In this document: positions 833 to 18,846 of the stretch, in pieces
How the letters are laid out: every line of letters starts with the position of its first letter
Position numbering within the stretch: position 1 is the stretch's first letter
Origin: Pseudobdellovibrionaceae bacterium
GTDB lineage: Bacteria > Bdellovibrionota > FAC87 > UBA2466
Assembly: GCA_023250715.1 (NCBI GenBank)
Contig: JAHFAF010000017.1
Location: forward strand, 1 to 32,443
Reading direction: 5' to 3'
DNA: 32,443 bases
The notes under the pieces: generated by a model
Database searches by the model: none
Told to the model about the DNA's origin: nothing
Seen by the model: only the letters and a program-made list of their open reading frames with translations
Position numbers and translations under genes: made by a program

Positions 833-1636
833 ATGAAAACCTCTGCATTAAATTATGACGAGTTGGCTACTCACGCATGCGTTTCGCCTCGCGCATCTCT
901 TGGCAGGAACGTACGTGTCGGGGCCGGTACTGTCATTCATGATAATGTCAAAATTGAAGATGGAACGGTCATCGATGAATTCTGTGTCATTGGACAGCCG
1001 GTTACGAAAAATATCTCCAATCGTCAGTTGGTTATTGGGCCTAATAGTAGAATTCGTAGTCACACCGTGCTTTACGAAGGCTCTAACTTTTTGGGGTCAA
1101 TTGAAACGGGGCACCACACGATGGTGCGCGAAAATACAAGCGCCGGAAAGCGCCTGCGAATTGGGTCATTTTGCGATATTGAGGGCGCCTGCACTTTTGG
1201 AGATTATGTTTCTTGTCACAGCTATGTGCATGTTGGGCGTCACTCACAAATTGGAAGTTTTGTTTGGCTTTATTCTCTCGTAACCCTTACTAACGATCCT
1301 CTTCCTCCCTCTTGGCTGGAAGCCCCAGTAACGATAGAGGACGGCGCGGTAGTGTGCGTGAATTGCACGGTGTTACCCGGAACTATTTTACGCAAGGGAG
1401 CGTATGCCGCGGCCGGAACTCTTGTTTCCGGTACCATTGGTCCTGGTGAAATTGTGACGGGTCCTAACTGCGAAAAAGTGGGGCATGTCACCTCTCTTAT
1501 TCATATGGAGACTCTTACGCGGCATCCGTGGATGGGGCATCACCATGACAAATATCCAGAGAGTGCCTTTGAGGATCTAAAGCGATTGGAAACTGAGATA
1601 AAAGCTAGCCGATGGGGGGAAACTAAGAATGGATAG
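833..1636 (+). CDS. Left-handed beta-helix (hexapeptide-repeat) acyltransferase
   Basis: The 267-residue protein has many isoleucine-patch hexapeptides (for example VRVGAG, IGPNSR, IGSFCD, VHVGRH) from about residue 20 to 210, the hallmark of LbH acyltransferases. The segment VTLTNDPLPPS is typical of sugar O- or N-acyltransferases of surface-polysaccharide clusters. A helical C-terminal tail follows. Family members transfer an acyl group from acyl-CoA or acyl-ACP to a sugar hydroxyl or amine in the cytoplasm. The next gene, an acyl carrier protein, overlaps it by 8 bases, which suggests the donor is an acyl-ACP made by this cassette. The acceptor is not visible; the aminotransferase at 5530-6693 makes an amino sugar plausible. 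Confidence 0.85.
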   Translation: MKTSALNYDELATHACVSPRASLGRNVRVGAGTVIHDNVKIEDGTVIDEFCVIGQPVTKNISNRQLVIGPNSRIRSHTVLYEGSNFLGSIETGHHTMVRENTSAGKRLRIGSFCDIEGACTFGDYVSCHSYVHVGRHSQIGSFVWLYSLVTLTNDPLPPSWLEAPVTIEDGAVVCVNCTVLPGTILRKGAYAAAGTLVSGTIGPGEIVTGPNCEKVGHVTSLIHMETLTRHPWMGHHHDKYPESAFEDLKRLETEIKASRWGETKNG

Positions 1637-1910
1637 AGCTGCCGTGATTGATCTAATAGGAATGATTCTAAAGAAACAAGGGAAGCCAGTTTCAGACATT
1701 AAGGAAAAATTCACATTGAAGGAACTAGGATTCCGGAGTCTGGACTTTTCCGAACTCTGCCTGAGAGTGGAAGAGTCGATTGGAAGAGAACTTGATTTTG
1801 ACGGCGCCTTACTACGTGGATTGAAAACGGTGGAGGATGTTTGTGATTTTCTCACACGGGCTCAGGGAAGCCCCGGTGGTAATTTAAGAGTGGCCGCCGG
1901 AAAAAAATGA
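1629..1910 (+). CDS. Acyl carrier protein (dedicated)
   Basis: This 93-residue acidic helical protein has the carrier-protein signature LGFRSLDF (residues 33-40), where Ser37 would carry 4'-phosphopantetheine. The usual DSL is replaced by RSL, so Arg stands in place of Asp before the serine. Helix I-loop-helix II spacing and the length of the folded part match ACPs; the last 15 residues are a Gly/Lys-rich extension. The start has a strong purine-rich ribosome site (GGGGGGAA). It overlaps the acyltransferase before it and the ligase after it (ATGA overlap). It probably holds the acyl group between the ligase, the reductase and the acyltransferase. Confidence 0.8.
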   Translation: MDRAAVIDLIGMILKKQGKPVSDIKEKFTLKELGFRSLDFSELCLRVEESIGRELDFDGALLRGLKTVEDVCDFLTRAQGSPGGNLRVAAGKK

Positions 1911-3199
1911 ATTTGAAGGGAAATAGACTTCTTACCGGCGATGGTAGCTTCACGCCCCTCGAGCTGACACATCTCTTCTCCGCGCTCATTCGTACAAGGG
2001 GAGTCACCACAAATGATAAACTGGCCTTTGTTTCCGAGCGGCCTGACAAATTAATCGGCACTCTTGCGGGAATCGCTACCTTTGAAACTGACAGCATAGT
2101 CATTCCTTTACCTCGACTCGATGAACGGATTAGGGCACGAATTGAAAGCGATGGTTATTTCCTCATTAATCTCGATGACAAGTGTGCGCCTATTCGGGGC
2201 GCTCGAGGGTGCGCTGGAGAATCTGGGAAGGTGGTTATTCTTAGCTCAGGCACTACAGGCGTTCCCAAACTAATTCCTCATTCCTGGGATACTTTGTTTA
2301 CTTTCAAAGATGTAATGACCCCGCAAAAGCGTACTTGGTTACTTACTTACGAGGCGGGGAGTTATGCATGGTACCAGATGGCGGCCATGTGGCTTTTCCT
2401 TGAGGGGCAAGACCTTGTTGTTCCCAGCTCCTCGGATCCTCAACAGATGTGGGAGGCGGGCCTTGCCGTTCAATTTGATGCCATTAGTTCTACTCCTACG
2501 TTCTGGCGCCATCTTTTGATCACGATCGGAAAGCAGGACATCCGCCTGGCAACTCTTCGACAAATTACTCTCGGAGGAGAGCCCGTGAACCAGGATATCT
2601 TGAGCCATCTGAAAGATTTGTTTCCCGCTGCAAAGATAACGCACATTTATGCTTCATCGGAAGCTGGGGCCTCCGTTATCGTCAATGATGGAAAGGAGGG
2701 GTTTCCAATAGAGTGGCTGAGAAAACAGTCTCCCGATAGACCCTCGCTTCGAGTGGACGGAGATCGTCTTTTCGTTAGATCTCCCTTTGCTTCAACCGCG
2801 ATCACAGAGTGGCACGATACTGGAGACATAGTCGAACTCCGAAAGGGGAGAGTGGTTTTACTAGGACGTGCGGATGGCCATGTTTTGAATATCGGTGGCC
2901 GCAAAGTCTATTCAAAAACAATCGAGGACATCTTGCTCAAGAGTCCCTATGTCTCGTGGTGCAGGGTTTATGCCCGCCAGGCGTCGCTAGCGGGCAATGT
3001 CGTACAGGCAGATATCGTCGGTACGCCGGCTCTCGTTTCCCTGGCGCCTGAGGAAAGAGAGGAGAACTTGTCCTCATATTGTCGCGAGCATCTTTCGGAT
3101 ACTTGGATGGTGCCTAGAATATTTAAGATTCTTCCTAAAATACCGATGAGTAACAACTTCAAATCAAGTTTAAGAAACAGGGCGGGAAATGAAGAGTAA
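1907..3199 (+). CDS. AMP-forming acyl-CoA/acyl-ACP ligase (ANL superfamily)
   Basis: The 430-residue enzyme has the ANL core motifs in order: P-loop-like SSGTTGVPK (113-121), the A5-like YASSEAG (248-254), HDTGD (303-307), LGRAD (319-323) and a C-terminal lysine in MSNNFKSS (Lys419) at the place of the catalytic lysine. It should adenylate a carboxylic acid and pass it to a thiol. It is shorter than most family members (about 500-550), mainly in the N-terminal part, as in some ligases of antigen clusters. Between an ACP gene and a ketoreductase, the acceptor is most likely the upstream ACP. It overlaps both neighbours, so translation is probably coupled. Confidence 0.85.
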   Translation: MNLKGNRLLTGDGSFTPLELTHLFSALIRTRGVTTNDKLAFVSERPDKLIGTLAGIATFETDSIVIPLPRLDERIRARIESDGYFLINLDDKCAPIRGARGCAGESGKVVILSSGTTGVPKLIPHSWDTLFTFKDVMTPQKRTWLLTYEAGSYAWYQMAAMWLFLEGQDLVVPSSSDPQQMWEAGLAVQFDAISSTPTFWRHLLITIGKQDIRLATLRQITLGGEPVNQDILSHLKDLFPAAKITHIYASSEAGASVIVNDGKEGFPIEWLRKQSPDRPSLRVDGDRLFVRSPFASTAITEWHDTGDIVELRKGRVVLLGRADGHVLNIGGRKVYSKTIEDILLKSPYVSWCRVYARQASLAGNVVQADIVGTPALVSLAPEEREENLSSYCREHLSDTWMVPRIFKILPKIPMSNNFKSSLRNRAGNEE

Positions 3200-3926
3200 A
3201 GACCAATGCATTATTATCTCCGGGGGAAGCAAAGGACTAGGGCTTGCATTGGTACTCTCCTGTTTGGAGCGGGGGTTCCGAGTAGCGACCTTCGCAAGAA
3301 AACAGACAAACGAAATTAAAGAAGTCGTGAACCGGTACCGTGACTTACTCTACTTTACGGAGCTTGATGGCACCGATGAGCCTGGACTAGAAAAATTCAT
3401 CGATAGAGCTTCAAATTTCGGCGGTGGCTCCATTTACGCGCTTATCAATAACGCCGCAATTGGTCAGGACCACCTGCTCACGCATCTCTCTTCGGAGACC
3501 ATCAAACGAATTCTCATGACGAATGTCCATGCACCGATCGTCCTAACAAAAATGGTCATACGAAAAATGATTCTCGCCGGCCAAGGAGGGAGAATTATAA
3601 ATGTTTCTTCTATCTGTGGTTCTCGAGGATTTTCCGGTTTAACTGTTTACTCCGCAACAAAAGGAGCAATCGACGCCTTTACTCGATCTCTAGCTAGAGA
3701 GGTCGGGGCGCGGGGAATCCTCGTTAACTCTGTAGCGCCGGGTTTTTTTTCATCGGAAATGTCCGCTTCGCTTGGAGACGATCAACTACAAACCATCGAA
3801 CGAAGAACTCCCACTGGAAAACTCACAGATATTTCCCAGGTCATCCCCACTATTAATTTTCTACTCTTAGAGAACACCAATATTACGGGGCAGGTCTTAG
3901 CCGTGGATGGAGGAATGAGCACTTGA
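3189..3926 (+). CDS. SDR-family 3-oxoacyl-ACP reductase-like protein
   Basis: This is a classical 245-residue short-chain dehydrogenase. It has the NAD(P) motif SGGSKGLG (11-18), NNAA (87-90), catalytic Ser at 140-141, and Tyr154-x3-Lys158 in VYSATKGA. FabG-type reductases give the closest pattern (VAPGFF near residue 190 and C-terminal VDGGMS). The basic residue after the Gly-rich motif suggests NADPH use. It overlaps the ligase by 11 bases and likely reduces or oxidises the acyl chain while bound to the cassette's ACP. A role as a sugar dehydrogenase cannot be excluded from sequence alone. Confidence 0.85.
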   Translation: MKSKDQCIIISGGSKGLGLALVLSCLERGFRVATFARKQTNEIKEVVNRYRDLLYFTELDGTDEPGLEKFIDRASNFGGGSIYALINNAAIGQDHLLTHLSSETIKRILMTNVHAPIVLTKMVIRKMILAGQGGRIINVSSICGSRGFSGLTVYSATKGAIDAFTRSLAREVGARGILVNSVAPGFFSSEMSASLGDDQLQTIERRTPTGKLTDISQVIPTINFLLLENTNITGQVLAVDGGMST

Positions 3927-4345
3927 ACTCATCCCAACAAAACGCAATTTCCTTGCCCTTCACCTGGGGTGTCGCGACCCTTGGTCCGTGCGGGTCAGTG
4001 AATGGAGAGGTACGATCCTATGATAATCGGGCGCGAGTGTTAGCGTGGACATGCCCAAACCCTAAGATGCGGTATGCTTGTGATATCGAGCACACCGGGA
4101 CTGATGTGAGCTATCTTGCGGGTCGTTTATTTCGTCCGGAACCTAATTTTCTTCAGAGCTGGGTGTGTACAGAGGTTCTAGCCAAACTCCACGATACACC
4201 AATCCTCAAATGGTTAAAAATGCGAGGAATGGCGCGGGCAATCACTACTTCGACGGGCGCCTTTCTGGAGGCGGAAGGGGCTGAGGTATACTACTTTAGA
4301 AATGATACGCTATTTTGCTACCTTGCTTTTGGAAGAAAACGGTAG
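3923..4345 (+). CDS. Probable short Sfp-type 4'-phosphopantetheinyl transferase
   Basis: The 140-residue protein starts with TTG overlapping the previous stop (TTGA), with a good ribosome site GGAGGA at 3909-3914. Three features match the Sfp/ACPS fold in order and spacing: CDIE (Asp54, Glu56; Mg-binding GxDxE region), RLFRPE (68-73; the family's FxxE), and WVCTEVLAK (80-88), corresponding to WxxKExxxK. The first lysine of the last motif is Thr83 here, while Glu84 and Lys88 are kept. A PPTase in the same operon as an ACP makes functional sense: it would convert Ser37 of that ACP to the holo form. The assignment rests on motifs only; a hypothetical protein with chance similarity is the alternative. 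Confidence 0.6.
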   Translation: MNSSQQNAISLPFTWGVATLGPCGSVNGEVRSYDNRARVLAWTCPNPKMRYACDIEHTGTDVSYLAGRLFRPEPNFLQSWVCTEVLAKLHDTPILKWLKMRGMARAITTSTGAFLEAEGAEVYYFRNDTLFCYLAFGRKR

Positions 4346-5533
4346 TCACTTCAAAATTGCCTCGTACATCTGAATGTATCTCGCTAGAACGACATCACGG
4401 GACAGATTATTCAAAATCCACTTTCTGGTAACCATCGAAATTTCCCGTCGAGTATCCTCAGAAGAAGCCAATTTTGCTAGCCCTGCCGCAAGCATTCCCT
4501 CACCCTTCATATCGACAATGGTTGCTCTCGGCCCCGCCACCCACATGGCTCTCTTCCAATCGTGCATAACGCAGGGCAAGCCCGTCGCCGCGGCTTCCGC
4601 GGTCGAAAGACCGAAAATTCCCTCTACCGATAGATTCGCGTAAATATCCGCGGCCTGATAGATTGAAGGCATTGTTTCCCTGTCGAGATCCTCGAATATT
4701 CGGCAGTCGGAACCGATTTTTTCGAAGGCCAGCCGTTTCAGTTCTGCCGACTCTCTAGTCGAAGCACCTGCTATCACCAGAACCGCAGGCCCCTGGTAGA
4801 TTCTCTTAAACCTCGCAAATTCCTGAATCAACCAGTCCGTGCGTTTTACCTGTCGTTGGATTGCCCCGACGCCAAGAATAATAATTGCCCCTTCTGGAAG
4901 TCCCAGTTTTTTTCTAGCGTCCAAACGATTCCCTGGATGAAACTTCGTCGAATCTACAAAATTGGGGACGTTGAACCATCCAGGCTTTTGGAGCCCTTCC
5001 TTTGCTAAATCCTGCAAGCCGAATGAGTCCAGCTCCTGAAGAAAATCGAATTGCGCGAGAAAATCGTGTGACTCCTCCGTGCCATTTGCAAGAATGACAG
5101 CGGGATGGATCCTATGTCGTCGTTTTGCTTTCAAGAGATACTGTGCGACAAGCGGATCCTGCATATGGATCAGGTCGTAGTCATTCTTTAGATAAGGCAC
5201 GAGGCGTTTATAAAAAGTGTAGGACTCCAGATTGTACGGAGAACTAAGAGGTGTTCTCCAAATACCGGGAAGCTTGTGACCCGAAACTAGCTGGGTAAGG
5301 CGGGAATTACGTCTCCAGCAGGGCACGACAACCTCGTAGGAGGTAGTCTTTTTGCCGGCCCCCTTGAACAAAGTGACGTTAACTCCAACGCTGTGAAGAA
5401 GCTCGGCGAGATCTCTTGCCCATGTCTCGATTCCTCGGGCGATGTGACCTAGCCCGCAGCAGGCTATGGCAATCTTCTTTCCGACAAGTGGGACACGTGC
5501 GGAAGGCTGACACGCATTTCCAGCTCGAGTCAT
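4346..5533 (-). CDS. GT4-family glycosyltransferase
   Basis: This is a 395-residue GT-B glycosyltransferase. It has an N-terminal GxG-like segment with GIETWARDL (34-42), an inter-domain NFVDSTKFHP (191-200), a second Rossmann domain starting ILGVGAIQ (219-226), and the nucleotide-sugar motif EGIFGLSTAE (304-313). The usual spacing of the two glutamates in retaining GT4 enzymes is E-x7-E; here it is E-x8-E, an extra residue. It would add one sugar to a polysaccharide or lipid-linked chain. The start overlaps the stop of the upstream aminotransferase (ATGA) and has AGGAG. Its stop codon abuts the stop of the convergent PPTase-like gene with no spacer. Confidence 0.85.
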   Translation of the reverse strand: MTRAGNACQPSARVPLVGKKIAIACCGLGHIARGIETWARDLAELLHSVGVNVTLFKGAGKKTTSYEVVVPCWRRNSRLTQLVSGHKLPGIWRTPLSSPYNLESYTFYKRLVPYLKNDYDLIHMQDPLVAQYLLKAKRRHRIHPAVILANGTEESHDFLAQFDFLQELDSFGLQDLAKEGLQKPGWFNVPNFVDSTKFHPGNRLDARKKLGLPEGAIIILGVGAIQRQVKRTDWLIQEFARFKRIYQGPAVLVIAGASTRESAELKRLAFEKIGSDCRIFEDLDRETMPSIYQAADIYANLSVEGIFGLSTAEAAATGLPCVMHDWKRAMWVAGPRATIVDMKGEGMLAAGLAKLASSEDTRREISMVTRKWILNNLSRDVVLARYIQMYEAILK

Positions 5534-6693
5534 GTTCTCCTGTCCGGTTTCGAATTGAAATAGCTCGCAACTACTGAGGCGACATAGGCTGCGTCATCGT
5601 TACTCATCGTTGGACAGATCGGCAAAGAGACCGCGGAGCGGGCGACTCTCTCGGCGTTTGGAAAATGGCCCTTACAAATTGAAGATCCCCTGAAGGCGGG
5701 TATCTGATGAATGGCCTGTGGGTAGTGAATACCCGTTCCCACACCTTTCTCTTTTAGGTATTGGCAAAACTTTTCCCGCTCTTCTACCAACACCACGAAA
5801 AGATGATAGGTGTGGTGAGCAGAGGGGCTTTCCACCGGAAGCTCAAGTCCATCGATATTCGCCAACTTCTCAAAATAGATATTCGCGAGGCTTCTACGTA
5901 TTTCGTTCCATCGATCCACATACTTCAATTTAATATTGAGCACTGCTGCCTGAATTCCATCGAGGCGAGAGTTTCCACCGATGGCGTCGTGTTGATACTT
6001 CTCTAGCCCACCATGCTTGCCAAATGCCGAACAGCGCTTAATGAGAGCTTCATCTCTGCTAAGCACTGCACCTGCATCTCCAAAGGCCCCTAAGTTCTTT
6101 CCAGGGTAGAAGCTGAAGGAGGCCAAGTCTCCCCAAGATCCTACTGGTCGATTTTTCCAACGCGAACCGTGAGCCTGAGCAGCGTCCTCGAGAATCCTGC
6201 ATTCGAACCTATCAGCGATTTCTCGCAGTCGATCCATTTGCGCCATTTGACCGTAAAGATGAACGGGCACGAGCACTTTGGTATTCTTAGTAATTGCGTT
6301 CTCGACAGAGGCGGGGTCCATCAACCATGTGCCGGCTTCTACATCCACCAACTTAATCGTCAATCCTGCATTGAGCAGCCCTTCGCTAGTTCCGAAGAAT
6401 GTCATCGCCGGAATAATAGCCTCCGCCCCGGCTGGCAGATCCAAGGCCTTTACAGCCAGGGTGATAGCGTCCGTGCCGTTTCCGCAGCCCACGGCGTGAA
6501 ATTCTGAGCCCACCCATTCGGCGAAACTTCTCTCAAACTTTTCTACTGCGTTTCCTCCAATAAAACCCGCGCTATCGATGACGGCGGCAATCGCCTCCAA
6601 ATACTCCTCACGGTTCTGCGCTGTGAGACCTTGCAGATCCAGCAATGAAATGTTCTTGTCTTTGTGTCGAGAAACTAGTTTCAAGGTTTTCAT
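5530..6693 (-). CDS. DegT/DnrJ/EryC1 sugar aminotransferase (PLP)
   Basis: This 387-residue member of the sugar aminotransferase family has GNGTDAI (71-77), PAMTFF (95-100), ILEDAAQAHG (167-176, PLP-contacting Asp170) and the PLP lysine in SFYPGKNLG (Lys199). These enzymes convert a nucleotide keto-sugar to an amino sugar using glutamate. The gene directly upstream encodes a Gfo/Idh dehydrogenase that could supply the keto-sugar, as in WbpB/WbpE-type pairs. The product amine is a natural target for the LbH acyltransferase of the facing cassette. The substrate position (C3 or C4) cannot be told from sequence. Confidence 0.9.
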   Translation of the reverse strand: MKTLKLVSRHKDKNISLLDLQGLTAQNREEYLEAIAAVIDSAGFIGGNAVEKFERSFAEWVGSEFHAVGCGNGTDAITLAVKALDLPAGAEAIIPAMTFFGTSEGLLNAGLTIKLVDVEAGTWLMDPASVENAITKNTKVLVPVHLYGQMAQMDRLREIADRFECRILEDAAQAHGSRWKNRPVGSWGDLASFSFYPGKNLGAFGDAGAVLSRDEALIKRCSAFGKHGGLEKYQHDAIGGNSRLDGIQAAVLNIKLKYVDRWNEIRRSLANIYFEKLANIDGLELPVESPSAHHTYHLFVVLVEEREKFCQYLKEKGVGTGIHYPQAIHQIPAFRGSSICKGHFPNAERVARSAVSLPICPTMSNDDAAYVASVVASYFNSKPDRRT

Positions 6694-6714
6694 GCTTTAA
6701 TACTTTCATGCGGT

Positions 6715-7788
6715 CTAGGCCGCGCGATTCTTCTCTTTCGTGAAAATAGATTCAACGGCATCCGGTTTCACTGTTTGGCCGGTGGCCATACTATGTGTTG
6801 CCATTTCCAGCAATTGAACAACGCGCTTTCCGCACTCCCCGTCTGAAATCGTCGGCTTGTCGTATGCGACGTGACTGTAAAGATCGGCAATGAGTCCGCC
6901 GAGCGCTTCGCGATTGGGCAGTGCCGGCGATATCATTCCGCCCAAAAGATATTTCACCCTTGCATCGTTTAAGGAATCGGTATTTGGGCCGGTAATTCCA
7001 CGATCATAAACTTTGATTTTTTCCGTAGGTAAATTCTCATCGTAAATGAGCATTCGCAAAGAGCCACCTAATGTGATGGACCGCACTTTTACGGGGGCTA
7101 TCCAGTTTAGGTGAATATGAGCGATAAAATCATTGGGGTAGTTCAAGGTGACGTGACAAAGACTTTCGACGTCATGGGAAAGAAATTTCTTTCCCACTGC
7201 GAATACGGAAATTGGCATTACCCCCCGAACAATGAAATCCAAGATAGAAAGATCGTGAGGTGCGAGATCCCAGAGAACATTTACCTGCCTTTGAAACCCT
7301 CCAAAGTTCACGCGAATGGAATCATAGTACAGCGGAATTCCGAGTGAGCCGTTGAAAACTTCTGCGCCAATATACTCAATTGCGGGATGATAGAGAAAAG
7401 TATGGTCGACCATTACTTTCCGGGAAAGCTTCTTAGCCACATCCAGAATTCGATTACACTCCTCAACCGATCGAGCCAGAGGTTTTTCCACTAATACGTG
7501 GCTCCCTCGGTTCATGCACTCGATGGCTAGGTTACAGTGGGCCGCCGGTGGAGCACAGATCACCATCACCTCGGGTTTGGCCACTGAAAACATTTGAGCC
7601 AGGTCACCAAAGGTTTTGATGTAAGGAAAATGAATGGAGCATGTCTCAAGAGCGGGAGGGGAGGAGTCCACCACTCCCACGACTTCAAACCCCCGATGGG
7701 ACGTCAAATTACGCAGCATGTTTTGGCCCCAATACCCATAGCCCACCAGGCCAACGCGTAATTTTTTCGAAATAGGAAGCGGTACCAT
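6715..7788 (-). CDS. Gfo/Idh/MocA-family NAD(P)-dependent sugar oxidoreductase
   Basis: The 357-residue protein starts with the Rossmann motif VGYGYWGQN (15-23) and has the family's EKPLA (101-105), in which the Lys-Pro pair contacts the cofactor and substrate. The C-terminal half is the alpha/beta substrate domain. Similar proteins in O-antigen clusters oxidise a nucleotide sugar, often at C3, ahead of a DegT aminotransferase, which is exactly the next gene (21-base gap). The ATG at 7788 has no clear ribosome site. The 208-base gap up to the methyltransferase start is partly occupied by the methyltransferase 3' end, leaving 176 noncoding bases. Confidence 0.88.
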   Translation of the reverse strand: MVPLPISKKLRVGLVGYGYWGQNMLRNLTSHRGFEVVGVVDSSPPALETCSIHFPYIKTFGDLAQMFSVAKPEVMVICAPPAAHCNLAIECMNRGSHVLVEKPLARSVEECNRILDVAKKLSRKVMVDHTFLYHPAIEYIGAEVFNGSLGIPLYYDSIRVNFGGFQRQVNVLWDLAPHDLSILDFIVRGVMPISVFAVGKKFLSHDVESLCHVTLNYPNDFIAHIHLNWIAPVKVRSITLGGSLRMLIYDENLPTEKIKVYDRGITGPNTDSLNDARVKYLLGGMISPALPNREALGGLIADLYSHVAYDKPTISDGECGKRVVQLLEMATHSMATGQTVKPDAVESIFTKEKNRAA

Positions 7789-7821
7789 TTCATCGCTTAT
7801 CGGCTTAGAACATGAAAATCT

Positions 7822-7841
7822 TGATGTTTTGTGATGTTTTG
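7822..7841. repeat. Short tandem repeat, two copies of a 10-mer
   Basis: TGATGTTTTG occurs twice head to tail (7822-7831 and 7832-7841), followed by TGATTA. It lies in the noncoding gap upstream of the Gfo/Idh gene. It may be a protein-binding site or simple replication slippage; nothing else supports either reading. Confidence 0.5.
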
Positions 7842-7964
7842 TGATTACCGGGCGACCGCCCCATTAAACTAAGCCTTTGAATCTTAAGATGAGTCGGGGG
7901 CGACGAGTTAACTTTATGCGTTATGTTTCTTGGGAAGAGAGATTAGGTCCCGAACTTCTACCGG

Positions 7965-8756
7965 TTACTCAACTCTTTTGGCCACGAACACGATGATAGG
8001 AGCAAGATCGTCCTGAATGTCCATTCGCTCATCCCTTATGCGCAGGACGGTCGTTTCAAAACCGAACGGCCGCAGCTGAAGCGGGAGATCTCGTCCAAAA
8101 TCCGTATAGACGAGAGAATCTTCGGACCTATAGGGATCGTCATGAAAAATTTTTGGGAGAAGATAAACGTCTTCCGTTCCCGATACATCCACTCGACTCT
8201 TCGTCATGCAATCATCCCGGTAGGGAATCGTGAAAAAGTAGGTTCCCCCTGGCTTCAGAACACGGTGAATCTCACTGAAACCAACCCAAGGCTTTCGAAC
8301 ATGTTCCATCGTTTCTGATGAGATCGCAATTTCGAACGAGGCATCCGGAAAGGAAAGTCTCTGGCAGTCCTGATTGTAAACTCGCGGCTTAATTTCGATG
8401 CCGAACGGTTTATTCCAGAAATACCCACTGCAGACATAGTTCGTAAGATTGCTATACCGACGGCAGATAGGGCTCTTAGTGGTTAGCTCGTACAATTTTG
8501 CGCCGCCTGCCATGTGCTGACTGAGCGGGCGCGAGGTAGTCTCCTCCACCGCTTTAACAATAGCGCGGTACTTGGGCGTCGATCGACATCTCACGCAGCT
8601 GCGAACAAACCGTTCTCCAGGAGTAATGCATACGAACGCGGTCCAGCGCTCACAAACATTGCACCAGTTCTTCCAAGGGATGACCCGTTGATACGTGAGA
8701 TGCATGATGATGCCCTTGATCGCCTTGGCCACTCTCGAAAGAAATCGAATCATCAT
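7965..8756 (-). CDS. Class I SAM-dependent methyltransferase with N-terminal zinc-binding Cys cluster
   Basis: The 263-residue protein has two Cys pairs near the N-terminus (CNVC and CVRC), which probably bind zinc, followed by a Methyltransf_11-like domain. Recognisable parts are the motif II/III acidic loop SFPDASFEIAISSETMEHV (shown in part) and the post-motif LKPGGTYFFTIPY. The Gly-rich motif I is poorly conserved (LYELTT). I chose the ATG at 8756, followed by a second ATG at 8753, because GGAGA sits just upstream; a longer frame from TTG at 8789 would run through a TATAAT box. It could methylate a sugar or chain end in this polysaccharide operon. Confidence 0.75.
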   Translation of the reverse strand: MMIRFLSRVAKAIKGIIMHLTYQRVIPWKNWCNVCERWTAFVCITPGERFVRSCVRCRSTPKYRAIVKAVEETTSRPLSQHMAGGAKLYELTTKSPICRRYSNLTNYVCSGYFWNKPFGIEIKPRVYNQDCQRLSFPDASFEIAISSETMEHVRKPWVGFSEIHRVLKPGGTYFFTIPYRDDCMTKSRVDVSGTEDVYLLPKIFHDDPYRSEDSLVYTDFGRDLPLQLRPFGFETTVLRIRDERMDIQDDLAPIIVFVAKRVE

Positions 8757-8778
8757 GTCTCCAAGCCAACTTCTGCCT

Positions 8779-8843
8779 ATTATACCCAAATTCGCGAATT
8801 GAAAGACATTCGGAAATTATACATGCTCAGATGGCTTGGGCAA
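8779..8843 (-). promoter_or_regulatory. Candidate internal promoter with two TATAAT boxes
   Basis: Reading leftwards, TTGCCC (8843-8838) and a perfect TATAAT (8821-8816) are 16 bases apart. A second perfect TATAAT lies at 8784-8779, without a good -35. Either would drive the methyltransferase gene at 8756 and the dehydrogenase, aminotransferase and glycosyltransferase genes after it. This splits the minus-strand run into a heptose-synthesis part and a modification part. The sequence pattern is direct; activity is inferred. Confidence 0.45.
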
Positions 8844-8937
8844 AAATATTCAAATCGTTTGAGGCCTTTCTCAATTGGCAAAGGAGGTACTCAATGCTGG
8901 GAAATTTGTCGCCGGTAAACTTCGAAGTTAATTTTTC

Positions 8938-9960
8938 CTAGGCAACCTTCAAAATGCCCGTCCCACTTTCTCTTTCCCATTCATCTCCTATATAGATCGG
9001 AATCGAGCCATCGTGCTCGAAGCGAAAGCTCATTGCACGCATGGGCTTTAAGGCCTCGATAATTTTTGAGTGATTTTTCGGATCAGACAGGATCAGGAGG
9101 AAGCCTCCTCCCCCGGCTCCCAGAAGTTTGCCGCCAAATGCCCCGTTTTCCTTAGCCTTACAGTAAGCGGTATCTATTTCAGAATTACTTATCGCCTTCG
9201 CCATTTCCCTCTTAAGTGCCCAACCTCGATCAAGGATCCGGCCGAATTCCTCGATATCGCCTGAAAAGAGAGCCTGCCTGCCGCCATCTACCAAACCCAC
9301 CATCGCGTTCAGCACTTCATTTTTTTCTTGGGATATCAAATTCTTTTTCTGCTCGGAGAGTACGGAACGTGCGTCTCGCTGCTTGCCGGTGTATAGCAGG
9401 ACTAAACTCCGCTCCAATAATCTCCAATATTCTGGCCGCAGATGGATCGGTTCCACGATTACTCGGCCATTGGTTTCAAAACGAATGACATTGAGCCCCC
9501 CAAAGGCAGCCGCGTATTGATCCTGTTTCCCGATAGGCTCCTTTAGGCGCCTGATTTCAATGTCACACGCCTCACTAGCCAATTGATGTTTAGTAACGTA
9601 GATCCCGGACCTAATATAAAAGTTATGCAGTAGCCCTACGGTGTAGGCGGAAGATGAGCCCATTCCAGTTCCAGCCGAAATGCTGGCGTGTGAACTGATC
9701 TCTAACCCGCCCGTCACCTTGAACTGTTCCAAGACTTCTCGTGCGATGGGGTGCTTAAGCTGCCCCGGGCTCGATACCGTCTCCGATTGGGAATACTGTA
9801 CCCTTATTTGAGTGGGATCGAACAATGGGTGAGAGCAAAGATACATGTACTTATTGATGGAGACACTCAGAACGGCGCCAGGGTGATTCTCATAAAATTG
9901 AGGAATATCGGATCCACCACCTAAAAAGCTTATACGAAAGGGCGTACGGGTTACGATCAT
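8938..9960 (-). CDS. hddA: D-glycero-alpha-D-manno-heptose 7-phosphate kinase
   Basis: This is a GHMP-family kinase of 340 residues. Motif 1 is TPFRISFLGGGSD (6-18), motif 2 is the phosphate loop GTGMGSSSA (97-105), and motif 3 is GGKLLGAGGGGF near residue 285. The start RTPFRISFLGGGSD is characteristic of HddA-type sugar kinases. It would phosphorylate D-glycero-D-manno-heptose 7-phosphate at C1 (alpha), committing it to the GDP-heptose branch. All other enzymes of that branch are encoded immediately upstream, and it overlaps the fused HddC-GmhB gene by ATGA, which supports the heptose assignment over other GHMP sugars. Confidence 0.85.
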   Translation of the reverse strand: MIVTRTPFRISFLGGGSDIPQFYENHPGAVLSVSINKYMYLCSHPLFDPTQIRVQYSQSETVSSPGQLKHPIAREVLEQFKVTGGLEISSHASISAGTGMGSSSAYTVGLLHNFYIRSGIYVTKHQLASEACDIEIRRLKEPIGKQDQYAAAFGGLNVIRFETNGRVIVEPIHLRPEYWRLLERSLVLLYTGKQRDARSVLSEQKKNLISQEKNEVLNAMVGLVDGGRQALFSGDIEEFGRILDRGWALKREMAKAISNSEIDTAYCKAKENGAFGGKLLGAGGGGFLLILSDPKNHSKIIEALKPMRAMSFRFEHDGSIPIYIGDEWERESGTGILKVA

Positions 9961-11267
9961 TGTCGCTTCCTTCTTTCCAGGGGTAGCAGGAAATTAACTG
10001 CATCAGGCAGGTCGTTAAACATGTGATCAGGTTGTACGGAGAGATCCCCGTCCACGCATTTTCTCCCCGTTCTTACACCGACGGTCAGTAGGCCGGCACC
10101 TCTCCCACAAAGGATATCCCGAAAAGAGTCCCCAACGATCGCGGACGTAGACAAATCAATGTTAAACTCTTGGGACGCTTCCTCTATCATTCCCGTCTTG
10201 GGCTTCCTGCAGCCACAATTTATCTTCAATTGGGAATTCTCTCCCGGGTATCCTCCATCCGGGTGGTGGGGACAGAAGTAGATGCCGTCGACCCATGCGC
10301 CATTTTCGCCTAGAAGGGTTTCCATTTTATTGTGGATGGTATCAAGATCTGAAAGACTACAAGAATTCTTTGCAATGCCTGGTTGATTGGTAACGACAAT
10401 CGTAAGAAAATTCGACTCGTTAATTTGTCGTATCGCTTCCGAAACGCCAGGAATGAGATAAAAATCCTCAGATCTGTCTACTGGAGACAAAGCATCGTTG
10501 ATGACCCCGTCTCGATCCAAAAAAATAGCCCTCTGAGGCACATCCCTATTTTTCCGTGCAACTCTACCGCTTTCGAAGTCTACTCTCACCTCCTCCAATC
10601 GTTCAGGAGTGCCTGCATCCTTTAGGTATTCAAATGTTTTGTAAGCGAATACTCTCCCAGACTGAATCATGTTGGGGAGAACATCCTTGAAAAAATCGGA
10701 GGGCCTACCCGAGGGGACGTAGGATGTTGCCTCCGGTGAGAGAATGTATGCTCCCGCATTCCCCAAATTCTTCAGATACGTACCAGCCGGGTGGGGGCGA
10801 TGGTTCAGTTGAATAATTCTCGAGCTCTCATCAACCTCAACCAAATCGCTGTCAAAAATATGACTGCTAGGATGTACGACAATGGTACAAAGGGCTTCCG
10901 TCTTTTTGTGGTGTTGAAAGAGACGATTTACATTCATCTCTATCATTACGTCTCCGTAAAAAACAATAAAGGGAGTCTGAAACGACGGCCCAACAGCTTT
11001 AAGGGCGCCGGCGGAGCCCAAGGCCTCTTGTTCGCGAAAATAGGAAATCTCTAAGCCCCATTTGCGCCCATCGCCGAAGTACTCTTCGATGCATTCGGCG
11101 AGATGGTTAATCACGAGAATAATCTCGTCCGCCCCATACCTCTTTAGTAGGCGAATTTGGTGTTCAAGCAATGGGTATGGCCCGATTTCTACCATGGGCT
11201 TTGGAATGGACTTCAGGACGCTTGCGAGTCGCGTTCCCTTGCCACCTGCAACGATCACGGCTTTCAT
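9957..11267 (-). CDS. Fusion of heptose 1-phosphate nucleotidyltransferase (HddC-like) and heptose bisphosphate phosphatase (GmhB-like)
   Basis: The 436-residue protein has two enzymes in one chain. Residues 1-235 are a sugar nucleotidyltransferase with GGKGTRL (8-14), PKPM (22-25) and GSAGALK (84-90). Residues 245-436 are a HAD phosphatase with FLDRDGVIN (249-257; Asp251 nucleophile, Asp253 acid/base), VTNQPGIA (292-299), a GmhB-type zinc site formed by Cys332, His334, Cys351 and Cys353, and GDSFRD (379-384). GmhB would remove the 7-phosphate from heptose 1,7-bisphosphate and HddC would add GMP, so two consecutive steps are joined. It overlaps the genes on both sides by four bases. Confidence 0.9.
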   Translation of the reverse strand: MKAVIVAGGKGTRLASVLKSIPKPMVEIGPYPLLEHQIRLLKRYGADEIILVINHLAECIEEYFGDGRKWGLEISYFREQEALGSAGALKAVGPSFQTPFIVFYGDVMIEMNVNRLFQHHKKTEALCTIVVHPSSHIFDSDLVEVDESSRIIQLNHRPHPAGTYLKNLGNAGAYILSPEATSYVPSGRPSDFFKDVLPNMIQSGRVFAYKTFEYLKDAGTPERLEEVRVDFESGRVARKNRDVPQRAIFLDRDGVINDALSPVDRSEDFYLIPGVSEAIRQINESNFLTIVVTNQPGIAKNSCSLSDLDTIHNKMETLLGENGAWVDGIYFCPHHPDGGYPGENSQLKINCGCRKPKTGMIEEASQEFNIDLSTSAIVGDSFRDILCGRGAGLLTVGVRTGRKCVDGDLSVQPDHMFNDLPDAVNFLLPLERRKRQ

Positions 11268-12220
11268 TGCATCACGCTGCTTTGTTCAATGAGATCCTTT
11301 ACTGCAAGCCTCACCGCCTCGGTTGATGTACTGGAGGGTTTCCAACCAAGCTTTCTCATTTTGGATGAATCATACTCAAAGCGGGGCACGTCCCCCTTCC
11401 ATCCTCTGGGGCCACCCGTGTGAGAGAGAACCACGGAACCGAGTTTCATTTCCTCGATCACAATCTCGGCAATTTCATCAGGGGTAGTGAACGAATCAAC
11501 GCCGACATTGAAGCAGTTGAAGGAGCCTGTGGATTTTTTCCATCCGATCAAGATCGCTTGCACGAGATCGTGAACATGCATGTAAGGCTTCGCTTGTTTT
11601 CCGTCGCCGAGTATAGTGAGCTGCTTCGGGTTTTGTCTTAATCGAAGTATGAAATCGAATAAGACGCCGTGTGTGGCTCGAGGTCCAACTACATTTGGAA
11701 AGCGAAAAATCCAAGAGCGCAAATCAAAATTTTCAGTGTAAGCGGAAATGAAACCCTCCGCCGCTAGTTTTCCGGCGCCATATAGTGACTTCGGAAAGGC
11801 AGGTCCCGAGTTTTCATTTAATTTTCCGCTGAGATCTCCGTAAATGGCGGAGCTGGAGGAAAAAACAAGATCTCGCACGTTGTACAAACGCATGCACTCC
11901 AAAACATAGAACGTGGAGAGAAAAGTTCGATTGAGATCAAGCGACGGGTCCTTTCCGCCTCTTTGGATATCTGAGTTGGCACAAAGATGAAACACACAAT
12001 CGAACTTTTCGCGCTGAAAAAGTAATTCCATTGCAGAACGGTCGGTAACCAGATCTAGCCGGCGAAGGGAAAAATGGGAGTTCTTGGAATGGTGCTCTAA
12101 ATGTTCCTCTTTTCCTAGGCTGAAATTATCAATGCAAACAACGTGGTCGCCTTGGCGAAGAAGTGCATCAATAATATGACTGCCGATGAATCCCGCCCCT
12201 CCTGTTACCAAGATTCTCAT
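11264..12220 (-). CDS. NAD-dependent epimerase/dehydratase (extended SDR, nucleotide-sugar)
   Basis: This 318-residue extended SDR has TGGAGFIGSH (6-15) for NAD binding, an Asp contacting the adenosine ribose (CIDNFS), catalytic Ser in SSSSAIYG, and YGAGK as the Tyr-x3-Lys pair. It belongs with nucleotide-sugar 4-epimerases and 4,6-dehydratases; the absence of the Thr-Asp/Glu pair typical of 4,6-dehydratases (SSS is found instead) favours an epimerase. Set inside the heptose operon, it may act on GDP-heptose or on another nucleotide sugar. The start has TGGAG six bases upstream. The substrate is not determinable here. Confidence 0.85.
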   Translation of the reverse strand: MRILVTGGAGFIGSHIIDALLRQGDHVVCIDNFSLGKEEHLEHHSKNSHFSLRRLDLVTDRSAMELLFQREKFDCVFHLCANSDIQRGGKDPSLDLNRTFLSTFYVLECMRLYNVRDLVFSSSSAIYGDLSGKLNENSGPAFPKSLYGAGKLAAEGFISAYTENFDLRSWIFRFPNVVGPRATHGVLFDFILRLRQNPKQLTILGDGKQAKPYMHVHDLVQAILIGWKKSTGSFNCFNVGVDSFTTPDEIAEIVIEEMKLGSVVLSHTGGPRGWKGDVPRFEYDSSKMRKLGWKPSSTSTEAVRLAVKDLIEQSSVMQ

Positions 12221-12234
12221 CCAATCTCCAGAAA

Positions 12235-12954
12235 TTAGGACTTAACAGGATAGAGCTTTCCGACCGTCGCTAATTTGCTCTTTTCCTTTCGGTCGCGAGC
12301 CCGCACTAGGAACTGCGCCAGCGTGTGCATCAAGACCTGGTGGCCGTCCTCCACGACACCATAATTTGAATAGTCGATGTGAAGATTTATATCGACCAGT
12401 GACGCTAGCTTTCCCCCGGAAAACCCCGTGAGACCAACGGTTCGAACAGATAGCTTCTTTGCCACGTCGACTGCCTTGAGAATATTCGCGCTATTTCCGG
12501 AGGAAGAAATTAAAACAAGAGCATCGCCGGGTCTGGCAAACATTTCTAATTGTTTCGAGAAAACATCCTCATAAGAAAAATCATTGGCAAGGGCAGTGAA
12601 GAGCGCCGAGTTGGATACGAGTGAGTGGGTTCTGAGGCTATTTTGTCCCACGACGCAGGTTCCCTTTGTCCAATCGCATCCCAGGTGATCGGCAATCGCC
12701 GCAGATCCTCCATTTCCCGCTACGAAAATGGTGTTATTCTGCTCTATTACCTCAAGGAGGACATCTACCACCCTTTCGAGATCATTTTTCCCGACACTCC
12801 CTAGGGCTTGGTGCAAGGCATCTGCATACTGTTCAAGGTATTCCTCAATGGATTTTCCATCGAAAATGGAGTTCCTAAATCTAGGATCCGCTTTTGAGCA
12901 ATTCTTAGACTTCTCCACCATGGGTTTAGAGAATTTTTTCAGAGTGCCTCTCAA
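12235..12954 (-). CDS. gmhA: Sedoheptulose 7-phosphate isomerase
   Basis: This SIS-domain protein has GNGGSAA (80-86) and SSSGNSANI (150-158), the sugar-phosphate binding loops of GmhA, plus VEDGHQ near residue 205. It converts sedoheptulose 7-phosphate to D-glycero-D-manno-heptose 7-phosphate, the first step for the operon's GDP-heptose. The apparent start is TTG at 12954 with AGGA upstream; an ATG at 12921 is an alternative. At 239 residues it is about 40 longer than usual, from an N-terminal extension. It is the first gene of the minus-strand run, 14 bases before the epimerase gene. Confidence 0.88.
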   Translation of the reverse strand: MRGTLKKFSKPMVEKSKNCSKADPRFRNSIFDGKSIEEYLEQYADALHQALGSVGKNDLERVVDVLLEVIEQNNTIFVAGNGGSAAIADHLGCDWTKGTCVVGQNSLRTHSLVSNSALFTALANDFSYEDVFSKQLEMFARPGDALVLISSSGNSANILKAVDVAKKLSVRTVGLTGFSGGKLASLVDINLHIDYSNYGVVEDGHQVLMHTLAQFLVRARDRKEKSKLATVGKLYPVKS

Positions 12955-17178: not shown

Positions 17179-18846
17179 ATGCAAAATTGGGCTGGGATGT
17201 TTTTTGTCTTTGCGTGTCAGTTATTACGCTGCTCGAGTGCAGGGGCCGCGCTTTCATCGGCAGAACATAAAGAGATCGAAAGCCGCTTAAAAAACTTTTA
17301 TCAGATTCCGGTAAAGCCTGAAGTCATGGACAGGGCCTTTTCGAGGTTTAACGCCATCACTGGAGAGATCGAATCTCCGAATACTCAACTTCTCTGGAAG
17401 GGCCAGATTTCTCCCGATGCCTTACTCCAACAAGCGCAGGCGAAATCGACCAAGGCGTATCAAGCGGATCGTTGCAAAAATTTCCTAAACCCGAAATTTC
17501 CGCAATTGAAATGCGGGGGGGAACACAAGCTGTGGGAGACTGCAAAAGCGCACGACCAGGTGAAGGACTTGGCGACGACCTGGATAGCTCCCGCGCAAGT
17601 TGCCTACTCCCTGGATGAGGTTCCCGTCACCGGAGAAGTCCAAAATAAATATTGGTCGGGAGATTATTGGAGCATGCGATTGGGACTTACTTCGCACCGC
17701 TATTCGGACGCAACTTATTATTCAGACTATAAGACAGCCGTGGCCTCCTATGTCCAACCCGCCGAGTGGGAGAAGCTTCTCTCCCCGTTAGATTTAGAGC
17801 AAATCGCCCGACATGTTCTCGATTGGTCGCCGTCAGAAAAGTATGATCTTCTAGCGGGAGATGAATCATTTGCCCTGACGAACCAGCAGAAAAATGAAGG
17901 GGCGAATTACCTTGGGGAGGACGGAAACGTGGAGAGCTGGTTTGGGATTTGCCACGGCTGGGCACCGGCTTCGGTTTTCGTGCCGCCTCCGCTCCATCCT
18001 GTCGATAGCGTGGGCGCACGAGGAGTAAAGGTGAGGTGGTATCCCGATGACATTCGCGCCATAGTCACACTCGCTTGGGCGAATGGGAATTTTCGGAGTA
18101 ATTTCATCGGCGGCAGATGCAATGCCAAGAAAATAGAGAGATATGAGAACGGCCGAATAAATCAGCCAGAGTGTTTCGATAATAATCCGGCGACTTTTCA
18201 TCTGGCTTTGGGAAACATGATCGGAAGGGAAAAAGTGCCATTCGTCATGGACGCTGCTTACGACTACACAGTTTGGAATCAGCCCGTAGTCAAATACGAG
18301 TTCGAGTATTTCAATCCGTTGAATGAGAATGAAAGGAGTAAGAAATGGCAGGAGGTTTCCGTTGCCTATGACAGCAAATTCAAAAAGAAGGATCGTTTCC
18401 AGAAACCTAAGACCCGCGGCGTGAAAAGGGAAACTGAAAATTATGATGACTCCGGGATCGAGGAAGTGGTGGGAGTGATTGCTTCGGTGACCTACCTCGG
18501 GGAAACGGGTGCCAGGCATACAGAAGAGCCCAGGGAAAACCACGAAATCCGCGTTTCCTACATCTATGATTTAGAATTGCACGAGAAAGAGGGGAAGTTG
18601 GTCCCGCTTGGGGGGGAATGGCATGAAAATACCCACCCAGATTTTCTTTGGGCACCCCAACGCGATTCCTTGGCTCAAACTTATCACGACTTAGCAGCGC
18701 CCAAATTGGATCTCAAGGTCGGCCCGACGGATGGCCTGTCGAAACTTTCCAAGACCGCCAGCGAAGACGGGTACCCACTTTGCAATGTAATTTCGCCGTT
18801 GATCGAGGCGTCGGCCGAGGAAGGAGCAACCTATCCCTGCCGCTAA
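17179..18846 (+). CDS. Secreted transglutaminase of the oomycete-elicitor (GP42/TGase_elicitor) type
   Basis: The 555-residue protein has a hydrophobic signal ending near AGA-A (residues 22-24). The catalytic segment WFGICHGWAPAS (254-265) places the nucleophile at Cys258, and the later HLALGN (His341) and FVMDAAYD (Asp358) are candidates for the rest of the triad. Directly after comes VWNQPV (365-370), identical to the first six residues of Pep-13 (VWNQPVRGFKVYE), the surface-exposed elicitor peptide of Phytophthora GP42 transglutaminase. Such enzymes crosslink glutamine to lysine or amines. The start has GGGAGGGG just upstream. The gene stands alone, and its stop overlaps that of the convergent metallo-hydrolase gene. 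Confidence 0.8.
   Translation: MQNWAGMFFVFACQLLRCSSAGAALSSAEHKEIESRLKNFYQIPVKPEVMDRAFSRFNAITGEIESPNTQLLWKGQISPDALLQQAQAKSTKAYQADRCKNFLNPKFPQLKCGGEHKLWETAKAHDQVKDLATTWIAPAQVAYSLDEVPVTGEVQNKYWSGDYWSMRLGLTSHRYSDATYYSDYKTAVASYVQPAEWEKLLSPLDLEQIARHVLDWSPSEKYDLLAGDESFALTNQQKNEGANYLGEDGNVESWFGICHGWAPASVFVPPPLHPVDSVGARGVKVRWYPDDIRAIVTLAWANGNFRSNFIGGRCNAKKIERYENGRINQPECFDNNPATFHLALGNMIGREKVPFVMDAAYDYTVWNQPVVKYEFEYFNPLNENERSKKWQEVSVAYDSKFKKKDRFQKPKTRGVKRETENYDDSGIEEVVGVIASVTYLGETGARHTEEPRENHEIRVSYIYDLELHEKEGKLVPLGGEWHENTHPDFLWAPQRDSLAQTYHDLAAPKLDLKVGPTDGLSKLSKTASEDGYPLCNVISPLIEASAEEGATYPCR

Follow-up and report, generated by a model that had tools for sequence, protein, structure and literature searches.

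Unusual acyl groups on surface sugars shape how a bacterium is recognised by hosts, phages and antibodies, and few of their pathways have been worked out. Does a run of five overlapping genes in a Pseudobdellovibrionaceae bacterium encode such a pathway, together with an activator for its own carrier? The window analysed here is the whole contig JAHFAF010000017.1 (32,443 nucleotides; assembly GCA_023250715.1), listed as C490 among the 542 contigs of a 4.5-Mb genome of 97.5% completeness and 8.6% contamination. A first-pass annotation made from the sequence alone had placed an acylation cassette at positions 833-4345, and the coordinates of the open reading frames (ORFs) and their family matches bear out its five overlapping genes. 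All five lie on the plus strand with successive overlaps of 8, 4, 11 and 4 bases, and encode in order a hexapeptide N-acyltransferase, an acyl carrier protein (ACP), an adenosine monophosphate (AMP)-forming ligase, a FabG-like short-chain dehydrogenase (SDR) and a 140-residue protein, g5, whose TTG start codon overlaps the stop of gene 4 (Table 1). We found that this gene order is kept between phyla, and that g5, a small protein that had no name before, is remotely related to the phosphopantetheinyl transferases (PPTases), by which carrier proteins are activated. Our best explanation, to which we give an even chance as a whole, is that the whole set is a single transferable operon whose products place an acyl group other than acetyl on the amine of a nucleotide-activated 3-amino sugar by way of a dedicated PPTase/ACP pair.

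Recurrence of the five-gene order

Rather than homologues scattered without order, which would have spoken against a cassette, a gene-neighbourhood search found the order conserved. A ligase scan of GTDB contigs returned a Melioribacteraceae contig (L002) that begins inside the ligase gene and carries the ligase (43% identical), SDR (58%) and g5 (36%) in order. A g5 profile was then positive in 2 of 396 genomes, that of L002 counted among them; the other is a single-contig genome from the same phylum as L002's genome, not the window's phylum, and holds the complete five-gene order (L021). With a ligase profile at 1e-45, three of 369 genomes were positive: the window's own, one from the window's own phylum with the complete order (L025), and a third in which the set is arranged differently (L026, see below). 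A further complete copy came from IMG/VR (L080; 3300031704_000545). Identity to the window is 48-59% for the acyltransferase of the three other cassettes, 41-48% for the ACP, 37-42% for the ligase, 48-58% for the SDR and 24-41% for g5. A chance neighbourhood was rejected because the gene order is kept between phyla, and the claim of a conserved acylation cassette of acyltransferase, ACP, ligase, reductase and PPTase-like gene is supported.

In a tree of ligase plus SDR, the five cassettes with g5 split from all sets without it with a support of 100. The two cassettes from the window's phylum are not sisters, with weak support (68-71), a pattern that would fit transfer between lineages. The gene g5 was absent from the plasmid records searched and was not found by a pattern scan of viral_contigs, and a denser genome sample around G102 gave no new g5. 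As for flanking genes, a WbmS-like deacetylase gene follows the cassette in L025 and L002, and in L025 it is followed in turn by ORFs that read, by eye, as an ATP-binding cassette (ABC) polysaccharide exporter.

Two contigs from the viral collection deserve separate mention. In L080 (242-5733), the neighbour of the cassette is a minus-strand ORF (4405-5733) that looks like a serine recombinase gene and could hint at mobility. L089 (IMG/VR 3300005935_002550, 2960-7557) carries an SDR, a ligase and a QdtC-like acyltransferase (36% identical) consecutively, directly before apparent phage structural genes, so that this acylation set is possibly phage-carried.

Relationship of g5 to phosphopantetheinyl transferases

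The five g5 sequences share an x-D-[IVF]-E motif, followed about 20 residues later by F..xW[VT]x[TL]ExxAK; D54, E56, E84 and K88 are invariant. When the g5 profile was aligned by hhalign to a profile of 21 Sfp-type PPTases from the same phylum, D54/E56 fell on the PPTase D-x-E motif and W80/E84/K88 on W..KE...K, with a score of 47.2 (probability 92.6%, P 4.7e-7). Controls stayed far lower, at a maximum of 20.1 for 300 column shuffles and 10.7-12.7 for five unrelated families, and the probability remained at 88-93% when any one member was left out. Support came only from sets containing Sfp-type enzymes; a small AcpS-type set gave none. In group II PPTases, Mg is bound via Asp107, Glu109 and Glu151 of Sfp, and activity depends on Asp107 and Glu151 (PMC4103896). 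The equivalents of all three residues of this Asp-x-Glu...Glu metal triad are invariant in g5.

Structure prediction pointed to the same superfamily. An AlphaFold (AF2) model built on the five g5 sequences, with no PPTase among them, reached a mean predicted local distance difference test score (pLDDT) of 88 and a predicted template modelling score (pTM) of 0.85; an earlier run on three g5 sequences had been poor (pLDDT 40). The top Foldseek match of the model was a PPTase both in the PDB (6rcx, PptAb; E 0.21, probability 0.18) and in BFVD (a Megaviridae PPTase; E 0.015, probability 0.99, template modelling score 0.47 by query).

Several observations weigh against taking g5 for an active PPTase. 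With HMMER, g5 had no Pfam match even at E 10, none in NCBIfam and no useful one in the PDB, and neither of the two Foldseek E-values is significant by itself. The P3 motif W..KE...K is incomplete: W...E...K is kept, and the lysine before the glutamate reads T, T, T, L and L in the five sequences. The SHS (P1) motif is absent from all five, and the N-terminal lobe is missing, g5 having 140 residues against about 220 and the alignment beginning at residue 36-37. We regard g5 as a probable divergent member of the PPTase superfamily; given the missing N-terminal lobe, P1 motif and KE lysine, we infer PPTase activity only with caution.

The carrier-loading core and its carrier protein

The first four genes are predicted enzymes of recognisable kinds and a carrier. 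The closest PDB relative of gene 1 is QdtC (3fs8), with an E-value of 1.2e-33 for the single sequence and of 8.2e-53 for a four-member profile over 231 profile positions, near full length; the next solved relative comes at 1e-13. Gene 1 is thereby predicted to move an acyl group onto a sugar amino group. Gene 2 carries its attachment serine, Ser37, right after Arg36 within FRSLDFSE, a motif invariant in four cassettes. The SSGTTG loop of the ligase (T/S at the first position) and an A10-type Lys419 are conserved in five homologues; the enzyme is predicted to activate an acid and load it on the ACP. The SDR residues Asn112, Ser140, Tyr154 and Lys158 are invariant. Gene 4 is predicted to be a 3-oxoacyl-ACP reductase, which fits the ketoacyl synthase III gene found directly after the SDR in a homologous Azospirillum module.

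Positions 1629-3926 of the window fit the definition of a module of adjacent ACP, AMP ligase and FabG-like SDR genes in a glycan locus, and such modules are not confined to cassettes with g5. At 1e-40, 16 of 399 Pseudomonadota genomes had ligase homologues lacking g5; in nearly all of these an SDR gene stands shortly after the ligase gene, and usually an ACP gene stands before it. Several of these sets adjoin pseudaminic- or legionaminic-type synthases, flagellins or other polysaccharide genes. The three genes are adjacent and in the same order in Azospirillum (L011, L012), where the ketoacyl synthase III follows, and a hexapeptide acyltransferase precedes the set in Haematobacter and Qingshengfaniella. 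Published examples are the Aeromonas group II flagellar glycosylation islands, with orf1 for an ACP, orf2 for a reductase and orf3 for an AMP synthetase (PMC7874193), and the Acp-CaiC-FabG set of Enterobacteriaceae flagellar glycosylation islands (PMC4875605). The Aeromonas, Enterobacteriaceae and Azospirillum sets hold the same three enzyme types as the cassette, likewise in surface-glycan loci; they differ in lacking g5, in having, where it was read, an Asp-Ser attachment site instead of Arg-Ser, and in the genes around them (LuxC/LuxE, ketoacyl synthase III, an alpha/beta hydrolase). The first-pass annotation had named the FabG-like SDR, along with a PPTase, as a distinctive mark. With trios this common in Pseudomonadota glycan loci and in published islands, the SDR is not what sets the cassette apart: its rare part is g5, and the core that loads the carrier is of a type already known.

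The carrier itself differs along with the presence of g5. Arg precedes the attachment serine in each of the four g5 cassettes that include the ACP, and Asp does so in 17 of the 18 g5-less modules whose ACP could be identified; the housekeeping ACP of the window's genome reads ADSLD. The co-occurrence of g5 with an Arg-Ser ACP is consistent with a carrier dependent on an activator of its own. We tentatively go further and suggest, somewhat short of an even chance, that g5 founds a minimal one-lobe PPTase family with a TE/LE motif that would act only on Arg-Ser carriers, a natural orthogonal pair separating glycan acylation from fatty acid synthesis. Two points count against this pairing. The exception among the g5-less modules, L026, has Arg without g5, and a genuine PPTase is encoded there on the other strand about 2.5 kb from the ligase. 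In addition, the association of g5 with Arg may reflect a single event, as the g5 cassettes form one clade. The L026 set (3721-10827), from the window's phylum, runs ligase, an ORF without identity, SDR and a late ACP, the one with Arg before Ser.

Dedicated PPTases inside a biosynthetic cluster have precedents in the polyketide clusters of Gra-ORF32 and FdmW (PMC9813960). There, as in the cassette, a PPTase-type gene stands next to the ACP that it presumably serves; Gra-ORF32 and FdmW are full active PPTases, whereas g5 is a single lobe with TE or LE in place of KE and belongs to a glycan cassette. The phrase "own PPTase" in the first-pass annotation went too far: a PPTase-like gene is present, its activity is a prediction, and four other PPTase-family genes lie elsewhere in the window's genome, so that another enzyme could charge the ACP. 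In a separate part of this genome (G000:C177:7119-7724; L019, L092), an ACP domain with a GVGSS site is fused to a PPTase domain in a protein of about 210 residues.

These other PPTases are part of the strongest alternative, in which sugar acylation proceeds as proposed while g5 is a non-catalytic protein of PPTase fold, an ACP chaperone or docking partner, and an ordinary PPTase of the genome activates the ACP. The replaced KE lysine in all five sequences, the single lobe and the lack of a P1 motif would all suit such a protein, and the g5-less modules must rely on other PPTases in any case. On the other hand, a pure binding protein would have no need of three invariant metal-binding acids and an invariant lysine four residues on, the first and third of these acids being the ones essential for group II activity (PMC4103896). 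We consider a non-catalytic g5 unlikely, though it is the most serious competitor of the dedicated PPTase/ACP pair.

The facing locus and the proposed pathway

The cassette was described in the first-pass annotation as facing a locus with a sugar aminotransferase. The aminotransferase is indeed there, with a convergent glycosyltransferase gene in between (Table 1). Its closest solved relatives are 2oga, which we take to be DesV, and then QdtB (3frk). The adjacent Gfo/Idh dehydrogenase has UDP-GlcNAc 3-dehydrogenase as its best NCBIfam family, with a score far below the cut-off of that family, and in L021 the gene immediately upstream of the cassette encodes a homologue with 36% identity. The QdtC-like acyltransferase, the QdtB/DesV-like aminotransferase and the dehydrogenase together support the amino-sugar context that had been proposed, and they point to a series running from a 3-oxo via a 3-amino to a 3-N-acyl sugar. 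Since genes for a heptose-type kinase, isomerase and nucleotidyltransferase come next, the sugar could be a heptose. One of these genes (9957-11267, minus strand) fuses the nucleotidyltransferase to a HAD phosphatase, joining two steps of activated-heptose synthesis.

Table 1. Genes of the cassette and of the facing locus in the window.
Feature	Position	Strand	Supporting match
Gene 1, hexapeptide N-acyltransferase (left-handed beta-helix), QdtC-like	833..1636	+	PF00132 7e-15
Gene 2, acyl carrier protein (ACP)	1629..1910	+	PF00550 E 0.0014 (just below cut-off), NCBIfam ACP 7e-6
Gene 3, AMP-forming acid:ACP (or CoA) ligase	1907..3199	+	PF00501, PF13193; AMP-binding 6e-17
Gene 4, FabG-like short-chain dehydrogenase (SDR)	3189..3926	+	PF00106 5.7e-44, best NCBIfam FabG 8.5e-50
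Gene 5 (g5), 140-residue putative divergent one-lobe PPTase-superfamily protein	3923..4345	+	profile-profile alignment, predicted fold
GT4 glycosyltransferase, convergent with the cassette	4346..5533	-	PF00534
DegT-type sugar aminotransferase	5530..6693	-	PF01041 2e-103
Gfo/Idh/MocA sugar dehydrogenase	6715..7788	-	PF01408; NF040723 1.4e-32
Heptose-type genes (HddA-like kinase, nucleotidyltransferase-HAD fusion, epimerase, SIS-domain isomerase)	8938..12954	-	

In the pathway that we propose, g5 would attach phosphopantetheine to the dedicated ACP, which has Arg rather than the housekeeping Asp before its serine. The ligase would adenylate an acid and load it on this carrier, and the SDR, presumably acting after the ligase, would reduce a keto group of the ACP-bound acyl chain, most likely to a short 3-hydroxyacyl group. 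The facing Gfo/Idh dehydrogenase and QdtB-like aminotransferase would make the sugar amine, to which the QdtC-like product of gene 1 would transfer the acyl group, and the acylated sugar would probably enter a surface glycan. The cassette had been credited with each step needed, which overstates the case: predicted genes for activation, loading, reduction and transfer are present, and it lacks a ketosynthase and any gene producing the acid, a lack that also weighs against the proposed pathway. Nor did the flanking DNA examined in L021 and L025 show an aminotransferase next to the cassette, a further point against the proposed acceptor.

That last point bears on a second alternative, that the acyl group goes to another acceptor, such as a nonulosonic acid, a hydroxyl group or a glycan made elsewhere, with the facing locus a mere neighbour. 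Homologous ACP-ligase-SDR trios do sit in pseudaminic/legionaminic-type and flagellin loci, and the cassette and the facing unit are convergent, not one operon. The likeness of gene 1 to QdtC, an enzyme of 3-amino sugar N-acylation, that of the neighbouring aminotransferase to QdtB, and the Gfo/Idh gene adjoining the cassette in L021 argue the other way and make a different acceptor improbable. That g5 is unrelated to PPTases and resembles them by convergence, having some other activity, would suit the lack of HMMER matches and the weak Foldseek E-values and is very improbable in view of an hhalign score far above shuffles and unrelated families, its stability on leave-one-out, and a PPTase ranking first in both fold libraries.

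Two characterised systems come close to the proposed acylation of a 3-amino sugar. In the QdtC/QdtB pathway to dTDP-3-acetamido-3,6-dideoxyglucose, QdtC is the nearest solved relative of gene 1 and QdtB the second-nearest of the aminotransferase. QdtC uses acetyl-CoA; compared with this pathway, the cassette adds the ACP/ligase/SDR set and has a Gfo/Idh dehydrogenase nearby instead of the isomerase QdtA. In Vibrio cholerae O1, the tetronate genes VC0248-VC0252 serve to place an unusual acyl group on the perosamine of the O antigen (PMC3441752). Both this system and the cassette comprise dedicated genes for making and attaching an acyl group for an amino sugar, a likeness by description only, and the V. 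cholerae system acylates a 4-amino sugar whereas a 3-amino sugar is proposed here. We know of no PPTase-like gene in the tetronate system. The Shewanella operon sfmABCDE was dropped as a relative, as it has no ACP or AMP ligase (PMC3765264).

The cassette is compact and intact across phyla, and it pairs an unnamed PPTase-like family with a carrier whose attachment site is altered, so that carrier specificity and the acid are both open to tests on no more than five small proteins. If true, a private pair of PPTase and ACP would be a useful tool. Elsewhere in the window, positions 17179-18846 encode a predicted transglutaminase-elicitor-type protein (PF16683, 4e-30), of a family best known from oomycetes.

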